Source: a virus. Taken from it: 31,633 bases of DNA. Under the pieces are notes generated by a model, which was not told the origin of the DNA, ran no database searches, and saw only the letters and a program-made list of their open reading frames with translations. Shown one piece after another: positions 1,016-23,935 of the stretch (its first letter is position 1; every line of letters starts with the position of its first letter). The DNA lies in IMG/VR virus record IMGVR_UViG_3300042934_000853, positions 1 through 31,633 of that record; one strand, written 5' to 3'. The position numbers were made by a program, and so were the translations under genes.

Positions 1016-1624
1016 TTAAAGTTCTTTTCTCATCAGATCGTTGTTGATAAGTTTAATTGACTTGTCTAACACACCTATCAATTCTAAATATTTGTTCTCA
1101 TTCATGGTATAGCCCTTATCAGCAATTAATTTGATTAATCTGTAGGATGCCATTATTTTTTCTAGTGTACCTTCGCTTGTCTCTATGCCAATCATAGTTT
1201 TGCAATCATTCCAATTATCAACACTTAGATATGTAATAAAAGATCTATTGCTATTTTCTAGATAGTCGCTCTTACAGCTTTCAATAATTTTTTTGTTTGC
1301 TGACAATTCATTTTTAATTAATCTTAAAATGGCTGAATTACCTGCCTGACTTTTATTTTTTTCAAGATAAAATGTATTTTGAACCTGGTATGCTGCGACG
1401 ATATATGCAACAATCCCACCAATAATCCCACCAATAATATTTCCAATAGTTGAAACTAGATCTCCAGCATATGATACTTTCAAACTTTTTAAACTAAAAA
1501 AAAGTATACCTGAAAATGATGAGAGTAATCCTAAAATATAGCATAGAATAAGCATCATCAAAATTGATTTAATGGAAAATCCAACTTTATATTTTAGCCA
1601 TTTATTTTTCAACCCTATTTCCAC
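1016..1624 (-). CDS. Two-TM membrane protein, third gene of AT-rich cassette
   Basis: The product is about 200 aa. Two hydrophobic helices are visible: residues about 17-44 and 55-80, the second rich in small residues (GNIIGGIIGGIVAYIV). A largely helical, charged cytoplasmic-type domain follows (about 85-202). The topology resembles membrane effectors of phage-exclusion and abortive-infection systems, but I recognise no named family. The annotated start is a GTG that directly abuts the TAG of the upstream gene. A TTG at 1612 lies eight bases after AGGTGG and could be the true start (four residues shorter). The gene is AT-rich, the last gene of a three-gene leftward operon, and ends at the bidirectional hairpin. 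Confidence 0.75.
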   Translation of the reverse strand: MEIGLKNKWLKYKVGFSIKSILMMLILCYILGLLSSFSGILFFSLKSLKVSYAGDLVSTIGNIIGGIIGGIVAYIVAAYQVQNTFYLEKNKSQAGNSAILRLIKNELSANKKIIESCKSDYLENSNRSFITYLSVDNWNDCKTMIGIETSEGTLEKIMASYRLIKLIADKGYTMNENKYLELIGVLDKSIKLINNDLMRKEL

Positions 1625-2146
1625 CTACTTCATTAAATCAAACAAATCAGTTTTTAGCCTTCGAACATCTGAACTCGAAGATTTTTCGATATCAGACATC
1701 CGAAGGCTTGCAGCTTTTTTTGAAAAATTATTTCCTTTATAAAGTGCCGAATTGTTGTCAAAATTAATGTTTCGAGGCTTCTTTAGTAAAATGAAATAAA
1801 TTTCCGTTGATTCTCGAATTACATTTTCATTCAATTTAAAGCCACATTCTTTACAAGTAAGTTCTAAATTTTTCGGTTCAATATAACTATCCACTATCTT
1901 ATGTGAGCATATTGGACAATCAATGATGTATCTTGGTTTTAATAATTTTACATCAAATCGATACACACCTGCTGTAAATAAATCCAATGTATGTTCTAAA
2001 CTAATGTCGCAGTCAATACTAAATTGTAACGGATTAATGGTTTTTAAAGTATTTGATCTTCTCGTTCCTAGCCACCAATCCAGTATATCTACTGATTTAT
2101 CCGGAAATTTCGCCTTCTTTAAATTGTTTAAACAAGGAAAGAACAT
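1625..2146 (-). CDS. Zinc-ribbon protein, middle gene of AT-rich cassette
   Basis: This 173-aa protein has four cysteines in two CxxC pairs (C77/C80 in DCPIC and C98/C101 in CKECGF), a clear zinc ribbon. The N-terminal part (about 15-75), with DILDWWLGTRR, looks like a compact helical, possibly winged-helix domain leading into the ribbon. The tail (about 125-173) is basic and serine-rich. The start is well supported: AAGGAGG lies inside the upstream gene, eight bases before the ATG, so this gene overlaps the 3' end of the 399-aa gene by 50 bp. That arrangement suggests fixed stoichiometry. A role as an adaptor or nucleic-acid-binding subunit between its neighbours is inference. Confidence 0.75.
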   Translation of the reverse strand: MFFPCLNNLKKAKFPDKSVDILDWWLGTRRSNTLKTINPLQFSIDCDISLEHTLDLFTAGVYRFDVKLLKPRYIIDCPICSHKIVDSYIEPKNLELTCKECGFKLNENVIRESTEIYFILLKKPRNINFDNNSALYKGNNFSKKAASLRMSDIEKSSSSDVRRLKTDLFDLMK

Positions 2147-3296
2147 AGTCTTGATCCTCCTTAGACATCATTTGAACATTTTGAAACAAAATAATTATTC
2201 TCTCATTAGTAACTTCAATTTTCGTTTCAACTTGTTTAACTTCGCCATCATCACGAATAAACCATCTGATCCACAGCTTATTCAGTTGTTTTTGCTCATC
2301 AAGGGTCTCTCTTGTATCAAAATAAATATCAGCAATTTCGATGCCCTCATTATGAGATAGAGCATTTACTTTTGCACCAGACTGATCGGAAAAGTCGATT
2401 CTATCAACAATACCGTATTTATCATCTTGATATGACATGTATTCGTCTATATTTTCTAAAATAAGTGCCCTTTCAAGTAATCTGGCAACTCGATTAGGAA
2501 CATCAACCTGAACTTTATAGTCATTTAATCCGATCTTTTTAGAAAGATTCTTCACATAATTTTCAATATCTGGCATTATATCATTTGTTTTCTTTCTATA
2601 CGAGGCTTCTGCACGATCAGTCATCAATTTAAAAATATTATATAAAGTTTCTTTTTCACCATCCATGCTGAGGTAACTAATTCCGAAAGTTTTTTTCAAA
2701 AATATTTGATAATAGTTGAACACATTACTACTGTGTGATTGATCAACCAAAAAATTGTTTATTGGTCTTGTCTTAATTAGCATGTAGTTTTCACGAGGGA
2801 AAATATCAACCCAATCATAGTCATATAAAGTGTTAGTTATAATTCCTCTATCCTCATCTTCGACTTGTATATCATATGGACGTTTTATAGCCATTGATAT
2901 ACGGATAGTTTCGTCAGCTTCAGAATCAACGTTCAAATATACTAATTTCCCATTTTGAATATCTTCATCGTCGATAATAGCATTGTTAAAATCTTCGAAT
3001 GGCAGCCCGCTTTTTTGTAACTGTTGCCTCACTAACGCTTCACTACCGATAATTTTCAAACTTTCGATTGAAAAATCGCACCAAAATATTTGTCTATTTT
3101 TACTACTACTTAACTCATCAACAACAAATTGATTAAATTTTTCCAACAATATTTGATCATTATTGATATATTCTTCCACTCTATGAAAAGCATCCCCGCT
3201 AAATGGCTTACCATTTTTTCTTAAAAATGCTTGGCATCTATATTTAAAGACGAATTCCTTAATACCTCTAGATAAAGAAATCCTTGTGCTTGGCAT
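2097..3296 (-). CDS. Unknown 399-aa protein, first gene of AT-rich cassette
   Basis: I do not recognise this protein. It has no signal peptide, membrane segment, Walker motif or HNH/PD-ExK signature that I can see. The N-terminus (LSRGIKEFVFKYRCQAFLRKNGK) is basic. The middle is mixed alpha/beta with many acidic and aromatic residues (YDYDWVDIFPRENYMLIKTR). The C-terminal 130 residues look beta-rich (LWIRWFIRDDGEVKQVETKIEV). GGAGGAG sits five bases before the ATG. Leftward promoter elements are probable in the AT-rich 3300-3420 stretch. It is the largest member of a tightly packed three-gene operon (50-bp overlap, then abutting genes), consistent with a multi-subunit complex. As first gene it would be the sensor or enzymatic subunit (inference). 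Confidence 0.75.
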   Translation of the reverse strand: MPSTRISLSRGIKEFVFKYRCQAFLRKNGKPFSGDAFHRVEEYINNDQILLEKFNQFVVDELSSSKNRQIFWCDFSIESLKIIGSEALVRQQLQKSGLPFEDFNNAIIDDEDIQNGKLVYLNVDSEADETIRISMAIKRPYDIQVEDEDRGIITNTLYDYDWVDIFPRENYMLIKTRPINNFLVDQSHSSNVFNYYQIFLKKTFGISYLSMDGEKETLYNIFKLMTDRAEASYRKKTNDIMPDIENYVKNLSKKIGLNDYKVQVDVPNRVARLLERALILENIDEYMSYQDDKYGIVDRIDFSDQSGAKVNALSHNEGIEIADIYFDTRETLDEQKQLNKLWIRWFIRDDGEVKQVETKIEVTNERIIILFQNVQMMSKEDQDYVLSLFKQFKEGEISG

Positions 3297-3735: not shown

Positions 3736-4257
3736 ATGATTGAGAAAAGAAAATTGATCAGAGAAACGCCTTTTTCCAAAGTCTTTGGAGATAGCACTGG
3801 AACATATGAATATATTGATTTCAAAGTAGCCGGGACATCTTTCAGACAAAAAGAAATAAAAAAAGCCATTCGCGAAGAAAAAGATATGGGGCTGCTTGAT
3901 GACCCATATCAAGGCATGACAAATAAAGAAATAAAAGAAATAACATTTGATGAACCAGTTTTTCAATATGACGGTCTTACTTTTAGCAAATGTGAATTGA
4001 AACTAGAACCTGATAATGATGTTGATAAAAAAGCTATCGCTGTCTACGTTAATGAATACAAAGTTGGGTTTGTTCCCCTTAAAGGGTTTAAAAAAGGTAA
4101 AGACTACTTATATGAAAAGTTGACAATGCAAACTAACATGAATTTCATGGTGGATTTACACGGTGGAAAATACAAAATAAATAGAGACGATGAACATATA
4201 GAAACCGGTCAATCTGATTACAAATTGTCTGCAGATGTGATCATAACATTAAAATGA
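3736..4257 (+). CDS. HIRAN-domain-like protein
   Basis: This 173-aa protein starts at an ATG six bases after AGGGAGGA. Two blocks match the HIRAN pattern: a start strand KVAGTSF (about 30-36) and the diagnostic LKLEPDNDVDKKAIAVY followed by YKVGFVP (about 88-114). The core has the form L-x-x-(E)P-x-N-x-x-D-x-x-A-I-x-V plus VGxVP. HIRAN domains bind DNA 3' ends or damaged DNA, and occur alone or fused to helicases and nucleases. Here the domain stands alone, with a roughly 45-residue insertion (about 40-85) between the first strand and the core. A role in DNA repair or defence is inference. It has its own promoter and is transcribed away from the phage late genes. Confidence 0.65.
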   Translation: MIEKRKLIRETPFSKVFGDSTGTYEYIDFKVAGTSFRQKEIKKAIREEKDMGLLDDPYQGMTNKEIKEITFDEPVFQYDGLTFSKCELKLEPDNDVDKKAIAVYVNEYKVGFVPLKGFKKGKDYLYEKLTMQTNMNFMVDLHGGKYKINRDDEHIETGQSDYKLSADVIITLK

Positions 4258-4716
4258 ATGGCATTTTTGAGAAATTGAGTAAATAGTTTTTCGTAATGGC
4301 TTAATCCCATGTTAAAAAATGTTAAAATTTATGAAGTATGTATTCTCCGATTGACTACTCACTCAGCATGCCTAGGATAGCTGAACTTTTGTCAATCAAT
4401 CAACAGCATTCGGAGAAGATGCCTTTTCAGTTAGCCATGTCTCGCGAAAACAAGACCATCCTATTGATTGATTTTGATCATGGTGAACCAGGCGTGGATT
4501 TGCACCACACAAAATGGCCGAGCAATTCCATCTCACGAGTTTTATTCAGAATAGATTGGACATCAGGAACGACTTAGAAACGCAAAAAAATTAACGACAC
4601 GACAATACAACGTGAAGGAAAACAACGATCACATCTGAATAATTACGGGTTCACTCCCGATGCTCCTATGCAAAGCACATGATAAGCGTCTACCTATTCC
4701 GCCACTGGTTCATAGA
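4258..4716. other. Region without a confident gene
   Basis: The stretch between the HIRAN-like gene and the 3' end of the sigma-like gene holds one rightward open frame, 4338-4577 (79 codons). Its composition looks partly coding (ENKTILLIDFDHGEPGVD), but it has no ribosome-binding site and no recognisable family. I read it as a possible gene fragment, not a live gene. At its right end (about 4640-4712) is the tRNA-like sequence listed separately. The expected tail-tip and lysis genes of the phage are not here. Confidence 0.4.
4640..4712 (-). other. tRNA(Leu)-like fragment, degenerate
   Basis: On the minus strand, 4710-4686 reads CCAGTGGCGG then AATAGGTAGACGC. This is a close match to the T8-G9, D-stem and GG-containing D-loop of bacterial leucine tRNAs. 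About 25 bases further on is a GC-rich hairpin CGGG-(6 nt)-CCCG (4646-4659), where a T-arm would sit. However, the T-loop sequence is wrong, no acceptor-stem complement or CCA is found downstream, and no clean 5-bp anticodon stem forms. It is best read as a tRNA relic or tRNA-mimicking attachment/regulatory sequence. The short hairpin followed by TAATTATT might also act as a weak terminator for the sigma-like gene. Confidence 0.3.
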
Positions 4717-5574
4717 TTAAGATAATTTGTATGTCGTTACCTCACTAGGTAGCCGTTCAGGATATTTCTTTCTGCAATATTTAATTGCCTTTTTTTCAAT
4801 TGTCGGATCAGGTTCTGCTAATAAATATTTAGCTGTTGGATAATCCAAGAACGTCGATAATGCATACGGCCAAATGCCTAATATTCTCGCAATATCATGT
4901 CTCTTTAAAAAGTCAAAATTTAAAGTTAAATATTTAATTTTTCCGTAATAAGATGCGTTAATGTTCTGCATTTTGGCTTCTACTTTTTTATTCGGGCAAC
5001 CATTGAAGTAAGCATCTGAAATAATATCGTTATTTACAAGCCACTGCTTTATTAATGCCTCCCCACGTTTTATATCCTTACTCACTTTACCAACAGGTTG
5101 ATTACACCGTTTAGAAATTTCTTGTTTGTCCTTGTCGTGAACATAATAATCTAAAATAATCTCTCTGAATACATCATTTTCATGGAATATTGCTTCTTCA
5201 ATTATTTTTATAATTTCTTTGTCTGAAACACCCAGTCCCTTGTGATCAGGAATCAAATCTTGAAAGTCAGTAGTTTTATCATCTTTACCTATTTGCGTTT
5301 GGAGACTAATCCATGAATTACAGCATTGTTTTGATTTTTTATAATGGCTATATAATGCTTGTTTCATTGCAGGAAACGCAATGGTAGAAAACTTAAATTC
5401 GGGCTTTGTCTCATAAATCCTAATTGCTTCTGCCAAACCTAAAAAACACCACCCTAGAATTTCTTCAAAATCATTATCAAAAAATCGAAAACGGTTTGCG
5501 ATGTAATATACCATCTTCTTTGAAGACTTAACCAGATCATTCATCCAATCATCTTCTTGAGTGATATTGCTCAT
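4717..5574 (-). CDS. Sigma-70-family protein with C-terminal extension
   Basis: This 285-aa protein has sigma region 2 at about 14-82: YYIANRFRFF, then DFEEILGWCFLGLAEAIRIYE and FKFSTIAFPAMKQALYSHY. This follows the core-binding and -10-recognition layout of sigma factors. After the typical linker (DLIPD at 106-110) comes a region-4-like HTH at about 124-179 (QEISKRCNQPVGKVSKDIKRGEA). A further 105 residues contain another HTH-like stretch (HDIARILGIWPYALSTFL). GGTGG precedes the ATG by nine bases. The gene lies 15 bp behind the repeat-protein gene, so the two form one unit. It probably directs RNA polymerase to specific promoters, possibly late ones, but this phage also has an ArpU/Xpf-like regulator. 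It is AT-rich compared with the capsid genes, suggesting separate acquisition. Confidence 0.75.
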   Translation of the reverse strand: MSNITQEDDWMNDLVKSSKKMVYYIANRFRFFDNDFEEILGWCFLGLAEAIRIYETKPEFKFSTIAFPAMKQALYSHYKKSKQCCNSWISLQTQIGKDDKTTDFQDLIPDHKGLGVSDKEIIKIIEEAIFHENDVFREIILDYYVHDKDKQEISKRCNQPVGKVSKDIKRGEALIKQWLVNNDIISDAYFNGCPNKKVEAKMQNINASYYGKIKYLTLNFDFLKRHDIARILGIWPYALSTFLDYPTAKYLLAEPDPTIEKKAIKYCRKKYPERLPSEVTTYKLS

Positions 5575-5589
5575 AAATACGTACCACCC

Positions 5590-6423
5590 TTACTTTTTTA
5601 TTTTCCTAAATTTCTTGTATCCTTCCAATGCTTGTTGTCTTCTTTCTTCATTGAGAAATTCACCATGAGGGAGACTTGGAATAGTGGCTGCTTGCTCTTT
5701 CGCCCAACCAAGTTTGTTAATTCTTGAACGATACGTTCCATAATTAATGCCACTTTTCTCCGCTTTCCGTGCAAACTCACTCTTACCACGCTTAACAGTT
5801 GCGAGAGCTGATAAAATTGGTGGCCATCCTCTACTAACTCTTGAAATGAGTGTCTTCTTTTTAATTCCATTCTTCTCAGCAAGATCTAAATAATTCGTAT
5901 AATTTGTTTCCTGTTTAATTCTGCACTTAACAGCAGGAATTGTTATCGCTTCTTGAACAGTCCATCCCGAACGATACACTCTTGATTTCATCGTGTTTTT
6001 TGATATCTCATTTTGCTCTGCAATTTTTTTGTGATCTGTTGTTATATGAAATAAATTGTTTTTATCATTCAGAATGCGTTTGTTGACAGTCTTTCGATAC
6101 GCTTTCCCTTCTTCAGCCGCCAACTTTAAGGCATCTTCTTTTGACATTATTGGTATTGTTGCCGCATCGTGTGGATCCCATAAGTTATCATGAATACGTG
6201 CATAGAGACACTTATAGTTAATACCATTTTGTTCTGCTAATTCAACAATTTCTTCGCTTATAACTTTAAATGGTCTTTTTGGACGTTCTGCTGCTTCTCT
6301 AAGACTCCAGCCGCTTCTAATTACTCTGTCCCTAAACACTTGGCGAGATATTCCATTTTCATTTGCACGTTTAAGCCATTTTTTCCAATCGGAACTGTTC
6401 AAACATAGGAATTGACTACTCAC
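5590..6423 (-). CDS. Tandem modular DNA-binding repeat protein
   Basis: This 277-aa protein consists of about six repeats, starting near residues 20, 63, 101, 135, 182 and 221. The unit is roughly A-E-x-N-G-I-x-x-x-T-x-x-x-R-(V/I)-x-x-x-G-W-x-x-x-x-A-x-T-x-P. Clear copies include ENGISRQVFRDRVIRSGW and KSGINYGTYRSRINKLGW. The third is degenerate. Such helix-turn-helix units ending in W-x-x-x-x-A-x-x-x-P occur as DNA-binding modules attached to phage HNH/homing endonucleases. No nuclease domain is visible here, and the protein ends in a basic tail. The start is a GTG 16 bp after the Dit stop, with a weak AGGACGG site. It is followed directly by the sigma-like gene. A specific long-site DNA binder working with that sigma protein is plausible; a homing-element remnant is the alternative. 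Confidence 0.7.
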   Translation of the reverse strand: MSSQFLCLNSSDWKKWLKRANENGISRQVFRDRVIRSGWSLREAAERPKRPFKVISEEIVELAEQNGINYKCLYARIHDNLWDPHDAATIPIMSKEDALKLAAEEGKAYRKTVNKRILNDKNNLFHITTDHKKIAEQNEISKNTMKSRVYRSGWTVQEAITIPAVKCRIKQETNYTNYLDLAEKNGIKKKTLISRVSRGWPPILSALATVKRGKSEFARKAEKSGINYGTYRSRINKLGWAKEQAATIPSLPHGEFLNEERRQQALEGYKKFRKIKK

Positions 6424-6441: not shown

Positions 6442-7266
6442 TCACAGATAATAAGTTGGAAACTCAAACTTAATCGTAAACGGGTCACTTGCTCCTGTGA
6501 TGCGAAAATCATTTTTGCCATTTTTTATTGTTATGAGATTATGGTTTGTCTCGCCAAAAATCGAGAAGCCATTTTTTCGGCTAAACACTCCATCAAGAGT
6601 AATTTCATCGCCCGCAGTGCTTAAACCGGTATATTGCCAAACATCGCCTGTTGTCAGGTTCTCAATCTTGAGATTGCTTGATGCACCTTTGAATTTAATT
6701 AACAAATCGTGGATTCTTGGATCAATCGTCGTATCCCCGATATTCCAAATTGAGAATGAATTGGTATCTCGCGTATAATTTACGCCATCCAAGGGAATGC
6801 CTTGCTGTGCCGCTTGCACACTGATATCCCTGGCAAATCGAGCATATGGATAAAATGACATCAATGGAATGGTTACTGCTGCATCAATAGAACCCGGCTG
6901 TTTTTCAACTGTTATTTTCCCCGATAGTTTTACTCTCTCCCATTGAAGACTTGGATGAAGTTCATCAAAGAGATGAAAATAGTCTTTGCTATCTACTAGA
7001 ATATTTAATTGATGTAAAAAATCTGCAAACTGTGATTCGTTTCCTGCAAATAACAAAAAGCGAGCCGTCATGGCTCGCATTCCATATGTTGTTCCCTTGT
7101 CAATCGCACCGTCAACATTGGAAACAGTTCCTGTAAGCGTTATTGGCTCGGGAGGATCAATAACAAAGTCAGAAAATATAAGTCCCTTGTTCTCATCAAG
7201 CCTGACTTTTTCTTTTCCCTCACGCTGAATCAGCAACGTCCTCTCGTTCATCTTGTTAATGACCAT
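6442..7266 (-). CDS. Distal tail protein (Dit), Sipho_tail family
   Basis: This protein of about 274 aa has the layout of siphophage distal tail proteins (PF05709). The N-terminal half forms a ring-type beta domain (LTGTVSNVDGAIDKGTTYGMRAMTARF is the typical glycine-rich segment; note the VSKDYFHLFDE-like block). The C-terminal half (about 165-274) is a galectin-like beta domain ending FEFPTYYL. Dit forms the hexameric hub between the tail tube and the tip. The ATG at 7266 overlaps the tape-measure TGA (TGATG); a GTG one codon earlier is possible. Normally the tail-tip (Tal) gene follows, but here the next gene is the repeat protein. Confidence 0.85.
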   Translation of the reverse strand: MVINKMNERTLLIQREGKEKVRLDENKGLIFSDFVIDPPEPITLTGTVSNVDGAIDKGTTYGMRAMTARFLLFAGNESQFADFLHQLNILVDSKDYFHLFDELHPSLQWERVKLSGKITVEKQPGSIDAAVTIPLMSFYPYARFARDISVQAAQQGIPLDGVNYTRDTNSFSIWNIGDTTIDPRIHDLLIKFKGASSNLKIENLTTGDVWQYTGLSTAGDEITLDGVFSRKNGFSIFGETNHNLITIKNGKNDFRITGASDPFTIKFEFPTYYL

Positions 7267-10200
7267 CACCCCATTATCGCATCATCTCGAACTTGCTTTG
7301 TAAATTCACGATTTACCGCTTCAGCGAGGACCCTACTATTTAATTTTATTGTCGTATTCTTTTGTGCAATTAATTCTAACAGTTGGTTAGTACGTTCCGA
7401 TTTATTAATTAACTGTCCGATAAGAGAAATGAGTGCTGAGTTGTCATTGTTCTTATCATTTCCATTCTCAGATCTTGAAGAATCACCCGATAGATAATCA
7501 AGAACCTGATACATTAATTGAATGGCTCTGTTCGTGTTGGTTAATGGAATAATAGCTTCAGGTTTATTTCCTTCTGCAATATGGGCATATTGTTCTGTTG
7601 AAACAATGGCTCCGTTTGCATATCCATGCCCTTTGCCCAATGCAGATAATGATGGACCATAGCGATGCTTCGCATAATTCAATGCAGCGAGTAAATTATC
7701 AAAACCACTGAAGATATTCCCATGCCCTGAAAACTTATAGGCATTAAATGTTGCGGAAATCGTCTGCATTAACCCTTTGGCTAGGTCTCCACTCAAGGTG
7801 TTTACATCTGTATAGCCATGTTGTACGGCATGTGGGTTGCCACCGGACTCCGTAGCAATCTGACGGAGCACTTTGCTGACCATGGATCCGCTAGTAGACA
7901 AATCATTCATGGACAACGCTCGAATGACATAAGGCCGCCAACGCTCGACACCGCTTCCACCCGGTTCATCAGCAAGTGTTAACTTCTCTTTAATCCAGTT
8001 CAAGGCTTCCTTCGTGGCATAAGTAACTGTTCCCTTGGCCATATCAGCAATGGTTCCGCTCAGCCCGGACAGATCGGTAAACTTATCGACAGCAGTAGCC
8101 AACAATTGTGATGGATGAGTAACTGCATTCCAGAAACTATTCGCTCCCTTTGAAATAGCCGAGAATCCACCTTTAACGAAGTCCATAGCAGAACCTAGCC
8201 AGTTTCCCACACCGAATTGAGGTATTATTCCTGCTTTCATCAGAGATTCAGTCTTGTCGCCGCCCAAGATGCGAACCGGCTGTTTGAAATTGTAAAGCGT
8301 AGCCTTGTTCGGACTGACTTCAATGCGACCGTCAGGATGTTTGATCAGTTCATGTTTCCCTTTTTCGCCAACAATGGCAAGCCCCTGAGCAGAACCGCCT
8401 TTGGCGTACTGGGGAACGTCCCATTTCTTGATTTTTGGGGCATGCACTTTACCAAGTACCCAGTTGATCCCACCGATAACCCCGTTGACACCTTTTCCAA
8501 TGCCGGAGAGCATGCCATTGCCGAGATCAACAAACGCCTGTTTGATTGCATCCCAACCATTTTTAATACCGCTCGCCATGCGGTGGGGCAACTTTTTAAA
8601 GTAATCGACGATCTTCCCACCGATTGACTTCACTTTGTCGAGCATGTCGCCAAGGCGGCCACCCGTTAAGTCATTTAAAGTATTGTAGCCTGTCTTGAAA
8701 TAGCTTTTGACTGTGCCCATGGCACTTTTACTCGTTTTCTTCATGTCACTGCCGAGTTTTGACCATTTGCCGTGAATCAGATCTTTGAATGTCTGCGTCG
8801 CGTCTTCCATGGTTCTGTGTCCGTTTTTAAAGGTCTTTTTTAAACCAGTGAACATGGTTGAAGCGGCACCGTTTGTGTGTTTGTTCAACCAACTATGTTT
8901 GTCCGCAACCTGGTCAGCCATCTTTTTCGTTGCATCGACAGACCATTTTTTCATGTCATTGAACTTATCCTTGGCGGCGTTAGCCATCTTCTTGGCGTGA
9001 TCGCTGACGCCTTTTTTCATATCACCGAATTTATCTTTAATTCCACCAGCGAATTTTTTAACGCCGTCAGTGATCCCATTCCAAATCCCTTTAAACCACT
9101 TACCCATACTGCCAAAAATTTTCTTGATATTGGACCATATTCCATTAACAAAATCTCTGAATTTCTCATTATGCTTATATAGGGCAACGAATCCGGTCAC
9201 TAAGAGTCCGACTGCAGTGATAATGAGTCCGATGGGATTCGCTTTCAAGGCAAGGTTCAATGCTTTTTGAGCGAACGTCCAAGCCTTGGTAGCACTGGTA
9301 ATAATTTTTTGTCCAGCTGCAATGGCTACCGCTTTTGCTTTTGTCAGGAAACTTTTACTTAAGGATCCGACCCATTTAGCTGAGTCTTTGGCTGCCGATC
9401 CGACGCCTTTAATACTAGAAGTAATCGCTGTGCCCGACCACTTGCCAATGCCTTTGATTCCTTTGCCGAGCCCTGTGACCGCTTTATGGCCAATCGTGCT
9501 TTCACTCCGCATGTAGGCAATTGATTTTGAGGTAGCTGAGAATCCTTTACCGGCAAGCGACAGTGCCGGATTAAGCAGACTCATTGCCTTGTTCATCAGC
9601 AACATGCCTGTGGCTAGTTCCGCAAACTGCTTCGGATGCTCCGCAATGAGGTTAAGCACCGGCTTTAGCACCTTATTCAACGTCTTCGCTGTTTCTGATA
9701 CGGCCGGTCCTACTTTCTTAAAGGTATCGGCGAATGTTGTGGCGAACGCTCCGGCTTGCTCCTTGGCTTTATTGAAGAACTTTACGATGTCTCCTGCGTG
9801 ATCCGCAATGAAGTTGCTGAATCGTGTGATGCCCTTGGTCAACGCGTTAACGGCCGCATCTGCAGTATGGGTCGCTCCCTTGGAGCCAAACACCTTACCA
9901 AACGCATTCAAAATGGTCGTCATGCCCTTGGAGGCTGCGTCGCCCATCTTTGAAAATTCTTTCTCAGTCGTTCCACTGCTTACCCATTTTGACATCACGC
10001 CAAACAAATCAGCCTGAGCCTTCTGAAATGGTTTTTGAAAGGCACCGATCAGTGCCGGCACTCTTGATTTCACAATACGTTCCATACCGGGTAGAGTCTT
10101 CATCATGTTTTCAGAAGCTTTGGCGTACTTGTCGCCTAAAGACTCCATAACTGCTTCAGCGTCTTTTGCACTGATCTTGCCGGCAGACATTTCTTTTCGC

Positions 10201-21979: not shown

Positions 21980-23380
21980 TTACCTTGACTCGTATTCTCT
22001 TGAAACTTCTCTGAGTTCTGTCAGTTCTTTTCTACTGTACTTCTTACCTCTCTCTTTAAGGTAAGACTTTAAATCTTTTTCATCAAAATTTTCAAGATTA
22101 AATATTTGTATTTTATATTGATTAAAAAAGTCAATGAGTGGCGTTACATAAACCATTTGCTCTTTATTATCGTAAATATCAATTTCTCCCAATTCAATAT
22201 AATCCACTGTCTCATTGTTAAGCAAAGAAAAAATATTTACTTTTTTTAGTTGTTCTCCAATTACATCAATTATTTTTGATAACGTACTCGAATCAGAATA
22301 AGTACTTATTCTAACAATGTTCTTTAAACTAACTTTTGCGTTGTACTTGCTATCACCAACTAAGATCCATCCATAACAAGATAGTATGTCCTTGAATTTT
22401 GAAAATAACTTGATGGATGAATTCTTGTATGGCTTAATGACGAAACCGTTTTTTTCAAAATTGCAATGAACAATCATGACATTAATGTCGTCAAAAATAA
22501 AATTAAGTCTGTCAACAATAGAAGTAATAAAATTGTGTTCATATATCATTGATATTGTTTTAGAGTCAATAAAACCATCTCTCTTTAAATAGTCTAAAGT
22601 TTGAAGATCATTTCTTTTTCTGAGCCATTTGACAATATTACGGGTTACTACAAACTCACTTTCCCTATTCTCCTCAACATACTCACCTATTGCACAATCA
22701 CATTTTTCTGCTTCAACCAAAAGTGAATTGATTAAGTCCATTCTATCTTCTACGCTACGGTCACTTTTGTAATCCTCAATTATATCTTTAATTTTTTCTC
22801 CTATTTCTAGATATGGATTGACTAAGTCATTTGTAATTAGTATTTCATAATTGTTAACTTGACTATCCCAATTTTCGATTTTTTTTAGAATACCTGGATA
22901 ATAATGCGTAACCTGCTTATTCCATGCAAGCCTTTCCGCTTCTTTTTGAAGCTGTGATCTTGTTTTTCCCCTTCTTAATTCTATGGAAGGGAATTCATCG
23001 ATGCAAGTACTACCGACGTTCATCTTTTTTCCATTGATTTTATTTCGAATATTAAATACCCATTTGTTATTTGGTTGATTACAAAGTGAGCAATGTTTTC
23101 TCTTTGATTCGTCCTCAATAATTTCAACAGGATTATTACCGCCAATCCATTCATCTTTACAAAGATTGACTACGCCTTGTAACATTTCATTTAAAGTATT
23201 AGTCTCATCATCATCAAGTTTTTCTAATTCAAGATCTATTTCATCAGCACTTTTATCCAAGTTTTTTACCATGAACTCAAATATTTCAGGTAAGTTTCCT
23301 TTGCACGACTCACTATTTACAATAAGCGATCTGTTTTTCCTATCTAAAATGAGCTTCCTACATAGCTCGGATAATCCCAA
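21980..23380 (-). CDS. AT-rich 466-aa protein with CxxC...GxxC zinc motif
   Basis: I do not recognise this protein. After a charged helical N-terminus (1-90) comes a putative treble-clef zinc site: HCSLCNQPNNKWVF (C97, C100), about 25 residues, then VGSTCIDEF (C126). A helical middle (140-290) and an alpha/beta part (about 300-430; FVIKPYKNSSIKLFSKFKDI, IDYIEL) follow, and the protein ends in a basic tail. The start is TTG 23380, just after GGGGATGGGG. The gene is far more AT-rich than its neighbours and separates the late regulator from the HTH pair, the signature of an inserted accessory (moron) gene. A role in defence or superinfection exclusion is inference only. Confidence 0.7.
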   Translation of the reverse strand: MGLSELCRKLILDRKNRSLIVNSESCKGNLPEIFEFMVKNLDKSADEIDLELEKLDDDETNTLNEMLQGVVNLCKDEWIGGNNPVEIIEDESKRKHCSLCNQPNNKWVFNIRNKINGKKMNVGSTCIDEFPSIELRRGKTRSQLQKEAERLAWNKQVTHYYPGILKKIENWDSQVNNYEILITNDLVNPYLEIGEKIKDIIEDYKSDRSVEDRMDLINSLLVEAEKCDCAIGEYVEENRESEFVVTRNIVKWLRKRNDLQTLDYLKRDGFIDSKTISMIYEHNFITSIVDRLNFIFDDINVMIVHCNFEKNGFVIKPYKNSSIKLFSKFKDILSCYGWILVGDSKYNAKVSLKNIVRISTYSDSSTLSKIIDVIGEQLKKVNIFSLLNNETVDYIELGEIDIYDNKEQMVYVTPLIDFFNQYKIQIFNLENFDEKDLKSYLKERGKKYSRKELTELREVSREYESR

Positions 23381-23452: not shown

Positions 23453-23935
23453 TTACATATTTATACAAAAAATGCTAGTTAGTTTCCTTATTTCAATCTT
23501 TTTATTTGCTCTTTCCATATATGACTGAACCGTTCCCTTGCTGATCTCCAACAATTCAGCTATTTTGCCATAAGAATAAAGTTCACCTATCGCCAGTATG
23601 TACACTTGCCGCTCCTTCTCTGTCAACTCACACAGGACATCTTCGATCTGTTCCTTCTCTGCTTGGCTCAAATCTCCTTTCGGTGCTTTGTGCAGGACTT
23701 CATGCCTAACCGCGTCCAGTGTTAACGGATCAGATGGATATAATCGGTTACGTTCCGCATTCATATAATGACTGCCGGGATCCCGTCCTGTCTTGAGCCA
23801 TCTCACCGCATACCGCATATCTCGAATCATTCTGCCAATGATCTCTTTATCTTCTTCAGACGCCTCAGAATAGGCTTTCTCAGCGATCCGTATAGAGTTC
23901 CGATAGTCAATTACCATTCGACTGAAACTGCTCAT
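23453..23935 (-). CDS. ArpU/Xpf-like late transcription regulator
   Basis: This 160-aa protein has an N-terminal helical part with RYAVRWLKTGRDPGSHYMN (the conserved phage late-regulator segment) and a C-terminal sigma region-4-type HTH: LTEKERQVYILAIGELYSYGKIAELLEISKGTVQSYMERANKKI. PBSX Xpf and ArpU-like proteins act as positive regulators of late genes and lie between early and late clusters, as here. The probable job is to switch on the leftward late operon from 21405. Confidence 0.85.
   Translation of the reverse strand: MSSFSRMVIDYRNSIRIAEKAYSEASEEDKEIIGRMIRDMRYAVRWLKTGRDPGSHYMNAERNRLYPSDPLTLDAVRHEVLHKAPKGDLSQAEKEQIEDVLCELTEKERQVYILAIGELYSYGKIAELLEISKGTVQSYMERANKKIEIRKLTSIFCINM

Follow-up and report, generated by a model that had tools for sequence, protein, structure and literature searches.

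Switching on the late genes is a defining step in temperate phages. The late regulators of Gram-positive temperate phages that are closest to the locus described here, those of the RinA, LlgA and Ltr families, are phage-encoded and expected at the boundary between early and late genes, upstream of the terminase. Each of them is one small protein of about 130 aa (PMC13123087). Here we analyse a 31.6 kb phage or prophage contig from an IMG/VR virus record (hereafter “the window”), in which, in contrast, a region-2-containing sigma-like protein (285-299 aa in its two known forms) is encoded next to a repeat protein. In a second phage, G001, the same pair lies at the early/late boundary upstream of terS, the location expected of Ltr proteins, while the pair of the window follows the distal tail protein gene; the G001 pair and a tRNA-like RNA described below occupy the region where late regulators are expected. 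The pair is probably a phage gene switch that has so far not been described.

The gene pair in the window

The window carries the gene set of a temperate phage, with a repressor, an anti-repressor, replication genes, HNH and a late-regulator candidate of phrog_1190 with sigma region 4 (23453..23935, minus strand), which is in the usual position of such regulators upstream of HNH and terminase. Genes for terminase, portal, protease, capsid, tail, tape measure and Dit are also present, mostly on the minus strand. A 466-aa ORF (21980-23380, minus strand) separates the late-regulator candidate from the terminase region; it gave no significant match to Pfam, PHROG or PADLOC.

The last identified structural gene encodes the distal tail protein Dit (6442..7269, minus strand; phrog_33, E 5.9e-36), and after a gap of 18 bp it is directly followed by the genes of the repeat protein P0002 (5590..6423) and the sigma-like protein P0001 (4717..5574). 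Both ORFs are intact, on the minus strand and 15 bp apart. Genes for tail-tip, receptor-binding, holin and endolysin functions were not found among the window ORFs tested; in the relative L002, whose Dit is 56% identical, the place of the pair after Dit is taken by a tail-tip-like gene (1447 aa) together with an endolysin-like one. The pair is AT-rich, with a GC content of 32% and 37% versus 46% for the structural genes of the window. The missing tail-tip and lysis genes together with the AT-rich pair fit a recombinant or defective prophage, and a chimeric assembly is possible.

Near the phage end, three further AT-rich genes of unknown function (1016-3296, minus strand) encode a membrane-like protein, a zinc-ribbon protein and a 399-aa protein. 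They look like accessory or defence cargo; PADLOC gave no match for them, and the search returned no convincing defence-system match. A HIRAN-like protein (3736-4257, plus strand) scored marginally below the Pfam cut-off. Promoter and terminator scans gave results at chance level.

Conservation of the pair in a second phage

In phage G001 (L014), the two genes recur with order and strand unchanged, with the repeat proteins 39% and the sigma proteins 35% identical (E 2.7e-44 for the latter), and in this phage the two genes overlap by about ten codons. Elsewhere, the similarity between the window and G001 is weak and confined to TerL, protease and HNH. The gene order in G001 is a phrog_1558 HTH-like protein, the pair, an excision factor (phrog_478), HNH and TerS/TerL. 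The preliminary description of the locus was to be refuted if the two genes never occurred together elsewhere; here they do so a second time, in a genome that is otherwise largely unrelated. Among the 37 repeat-bearing viral records, G001 is the only one in which a region-2 sigma gene adjoins the repeats. Single-protein scans with P0001 and P0002 in viral contigs and with P0001 in genome contigs gave no match, as did a TerL scan of genome contigs; P0001 and its G001 homolog found no convincing match in phage and plasmid records, and the only true relative to emerge from four more viral scans, run with sigma alignments and motifs, was G001.

The sigma-like protein

P0001 (285 aa) is, by its sequence, a diverged sigma-70-like protein, an assignment that is above chance. 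It comprises region 2 (residues 12-84), a region-4-like HTH (121-182) and a C-terminal domain (208-283). Region 2 narrowly passes the Pfam threshold (Sigma70_r2, PF04542; 24.6 bits versus a cut-off of 24), which the G001 homolog does not reach (16.7 bits). A match to the NCBIfam sigma70-ECF model (E 2.4e-10 over residues 12-177) is slightly below the cut-off of that model; a phrog_351 sigma family matches with E 1.9e-10, and the alignment with SigW covers residues 9-177, including the region-4-like part. Region 4 itself is weak (PF08281, 16.5 bits versus a cut-off of 25.7). Of the sigma-region-2/4 protein with an extension that had been described, region 2 (just over the Pfam cut-off) and the extension are retained, and region 4 only in weak form. 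The C-terminal domain of about 75 aa has no PHROGs match, and it is the best conserved part of the two sigma homologs (47% identity vs. 35% overall). An AlphaFold2 model of P0001 was of low confidence (pLDDT 40) and not usable. Family membership and linkage lead us to infer that P0001 may act as a dedicated sigma factor for P0002.

The repeat protein

P0002 (277 aa, GTG start) consists of HTH-type repeats of the phrog_1065 family (E 6.7e-55), a conserved spacer and a C-terminal helical tail. A repeat HMM that was trained on proteins excluding P0002 and its G001 partner detects five significant repeats, at residues 14-51, 57-96, 130-166, 178-202 and 219-251 (domain E 1.7e-19 to 9e-12); for the G001 protein the count is seven. 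Six tandem repeats had been proposed for P0002; the apparent sixth, at residues of about 97-128, is a non-repeat spacer, and the G001 protein has this spacer as well. P0002 aligns collinearly with repeats 3-7 of the G001 protein, and therefore may be N-terminally shortened relative to it.

In the AlphaFold2 model of P0002 (mean pLDDT 79.5), three short helices of HTH type are seen per repeat, so that each repeat is modelled as a three-helix HTH-type unit. A comparison of the repeats with the PDB (Foldseek/VIA) returned no fold of any significance, the matches being weak with Z of about 2-3. Repeat positions 14, 15, 18, 19, 22 and 23 are highly variable and cluster on the second (putative recognition) helix, whereas scaffold positions are not, the invariance of the positions A, N/S, G/E, I/V/L and R being partly a matter of seed selection, since the seed regular expression fixes them. 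Variability at these second-helix positions is as would be expected for base contacts.

HNH-type phage proteins bear this repeat at their C-terminus. Lactobacillus phage phiadh ORF188 and proteins of phage DSL-LC06 and Xanthomonas phage LucasX combine an HNH-like N-terminus with one or two C-terminal repeats, the HNH part being assigned by PHROG family, by record annotation (in two of them) and by a visible motif, with no score in Pfam. P0002 matches the C-terminal part of the phrog_3377 HNH endonuclease family (E 1.1e-14); its best stretch covers family positions 96-182, which is the repeat part, and Pfam, NCBIfam and PHROG gave no match to a nuclease domain in P0002. These results agree with the earlier proposal that the repeats are DNA-binding modules of homing endonucleases without the nuclease. 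In L016, L017, L018, L021, L025 and L034, several successive genes each consist of these HTH repeats, so that proteins of the phrog_1065 type are locally expanded.

A tRNA-Leu-like RNA downstream of the pair

A tRNA-Leu-like RNA (4484..4712, minus strand) starts 4 nt past the stop codon of P0001. It has a perfect 8-bp closing stem, a D-arm (GTGGCGGAATAGGTAGACGC) and a T-arm with the loop TGCAAAT; about 180 nt replace the anticodon arm, and CCA follows. According to BLAST, both halves of the RNA are present in Latilactobacillus phages, where they are closer together. All 17 pairs hold in three sequences, with four compensatory changes in the closing (acceptor) stem. The covariance model built from these three sequences (R1) matches phage phi3T (E 7e-10) and Listeria phage B025 (E 1.5e-8), both of which had been left out of the building and have different but complementary closing stems and T-stems. 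The other copies (L091 2496-2577, L092 2496-2600, L093 1494-1684 and L094 1512-1648) are unannotated in their records. In general, the D-arm and T-loop are conserved, the acceptor stem covaries and the insert is variable, with a total length of 82 to 229 nt.

Rfam and ARAGORN at default settings found no RNA, and the output of ARAGORN at relaxed scores was noise. The RNA of the window does not stand out in its overall folding energy (z -0.76); the case for it rests on covariation and on homologs found independently. Ahead of the G001 pair there are about 630 noncoding bases (L014 4351-4986), of which 4660-4960 fold unusually well (z -3.9); a tRNA-like shape without an anticodon arm that was picked out there by eye (about 4898-4950) was not found by R1.

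In two Latilactobacillus phages and in Listeria phage B025, the RNA is placed a short way downstream of a gene of the late-regulator type, in the slot near terS that has been described for late regulators (PMC13123087); the phi3T copy is near yonN and not beside an obvious late regulator. Since the RNA also follows P0001, its position suggests that P0001 occupies a late-regulator slot. As an element common to phages of Lactobacillales, Listeria and Bacillus, with no Rfam match in the window, it is a second lead from this locus.

Possible functions of the pair

Could the two proteins together switch on phage genes? We give about even chances to the hypothesis that, in temperate Firmicutes-type phages, they form a two-protein module for transcription activation, with late transcription as the likeliest target, which was moved to its present place by recombination. 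P0001 would dock on host RNA polymerase via region 2 as a phage sigma-like factor, while the array of HTH modules in P0002 would bind a long specific DNA site and bring the sigma-containing polymerase to a phage promoter, most probably a late one. The two proteins might contact each other via the conserved C-terminal domain of P0001 or the tail of P0002. A recombination or deletion would have put the module and the tRNA-like RNA behind Dit, removing the tail-tip and lysis genes. Binding of polymerase, DNA and partner, the late-promoter target and the recombination history are all things that we infer. If the hypothesis is true, the sigma-like factor and its dedicated, modular DNA-binding partner would be a new way to pick promoters, and the specificity of the repeats might be decoded.

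Linkage and gene order, conserved in two phages, and the location of the G001 pair at the early/late boundary argue for the activator module. So do the reading frames of both genes, which are still open at 35-39% identity, the variability on the putative recognition helix of the repeats, and the place of the tRNA-like RNA. Against it, a further regulator candidate occupies the late-regulator slot, or a place close to it, in both phages (phrog_1190 in the window and phrog_1558 in G001), and therefore the pair need not control late genes; in addition, the pair of the window would be transcribed together with the very late genes whose expression it should turn on. The pair is known in two instances, region 4 of P0001 is weak and its model of low confidence, and the phi3T copy of the RNA has no obvious late regulator beside it. 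Neither a target site nor a promoter motif was detected for the pair. Earlier, a hijacking of the late operon had been considered, which fits only the position behind Dit in the window; because the G001 pair is at the early/late boundary, the location in the window looks secondary.

It is rather unlikely that P0001 is an ordinary diverged phage sigma factor or late regulator and P0002 an unrelated free-standing DNA-binding protein, which share an operon by common descent of a gene block and do no joint work. Proteins of phrog_1065 are indeed widespread in early regions without a sigma gene, and the pair is known in two instances. However, order and spacing are kept in genomes that are otherwise largely unrelated, each P0001 homolog comes with the partner, and the best match of P0002 is by far the G001 protein (E 3e-63 vs. 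1e-24). That the repeat protein is a selfish or relic module, left over from a homing endonuclease, hitch-hiking beside a regulator and carried into the tail operon, seems improbable. The repeats on HNH-type phage proteins and the mosaic phage genes in both contexts would suit such an origin, but neither copy has a nuclease domain, and neither an insertion target nor an empty site was identified, which also leaves the mobile unit of the preliminary description without direct support. Moreover, five to seven repeats are conserved, and since both reading frames are open at 35-39% identity, both genes appear to be under selection.

We see an equally small likelihood that the two proteins are antagonists, with the repeat protein as an anti-sigma-like or repressor partner that controls P0001. 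Genes for sigma/anti-sigma pairs are typically closely spaced or overlapping and co-transcribed, and the genes do overlap in G001; the repeats, on the other hand, are HTH-type modules shared with nucleases, which known anti-sigma folds do not resemble. Going beyond the activator module, one may picture a protein-addressed sigma system, which we regard as unlikely: an HTH array from homing endonucleases, with one base-contact segment per repeat, would read a long site, and a new C-terminal domain would serve it to recruit a sigma factor of its own; promoters would then be chosen by the array and not by -10/-35 motifs. The tRNA-like RNA may take part in it.

Comparison with known systems

In nuclease-dead Cas12f systems with an ECF sigma factor, a DNA-binding effector is paired with a sigma factor. 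The logic of a separate DNA binder that recruits a sigma factor may be shared by analogy, with a protein HTH array here in place of the RNA guide, and we claim no homology. In a TALE-like code, variable base-reading positions stand in an otherwise fixed repeat; the repeat positions listed above are highly variable, the fold matches were weak, and the repeats may or may not follow such a code.

With the sigma-70 superfamily (ECF, WhiG/SigW-like) P0001 shares region 2 and a region-4-like HTH over residues 12-177; it differs in its weak region 4, in the conserved C-terminal domain of unknown family and in having a repeat-protein partner in both known cases. P0002 has the same repeat (N-G-I...R...G-W....A-A-T-x-P) as the phrog_1065 / PVL ORF-50-like proteins and the C-terminal modules of HNH phage endonucleases, which in this analysis have no sigma partner. 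The HNH-type proteins carry their one or two repeats behind a nuclease-like N-terminus, whereas P0002 has five and no nuclease.
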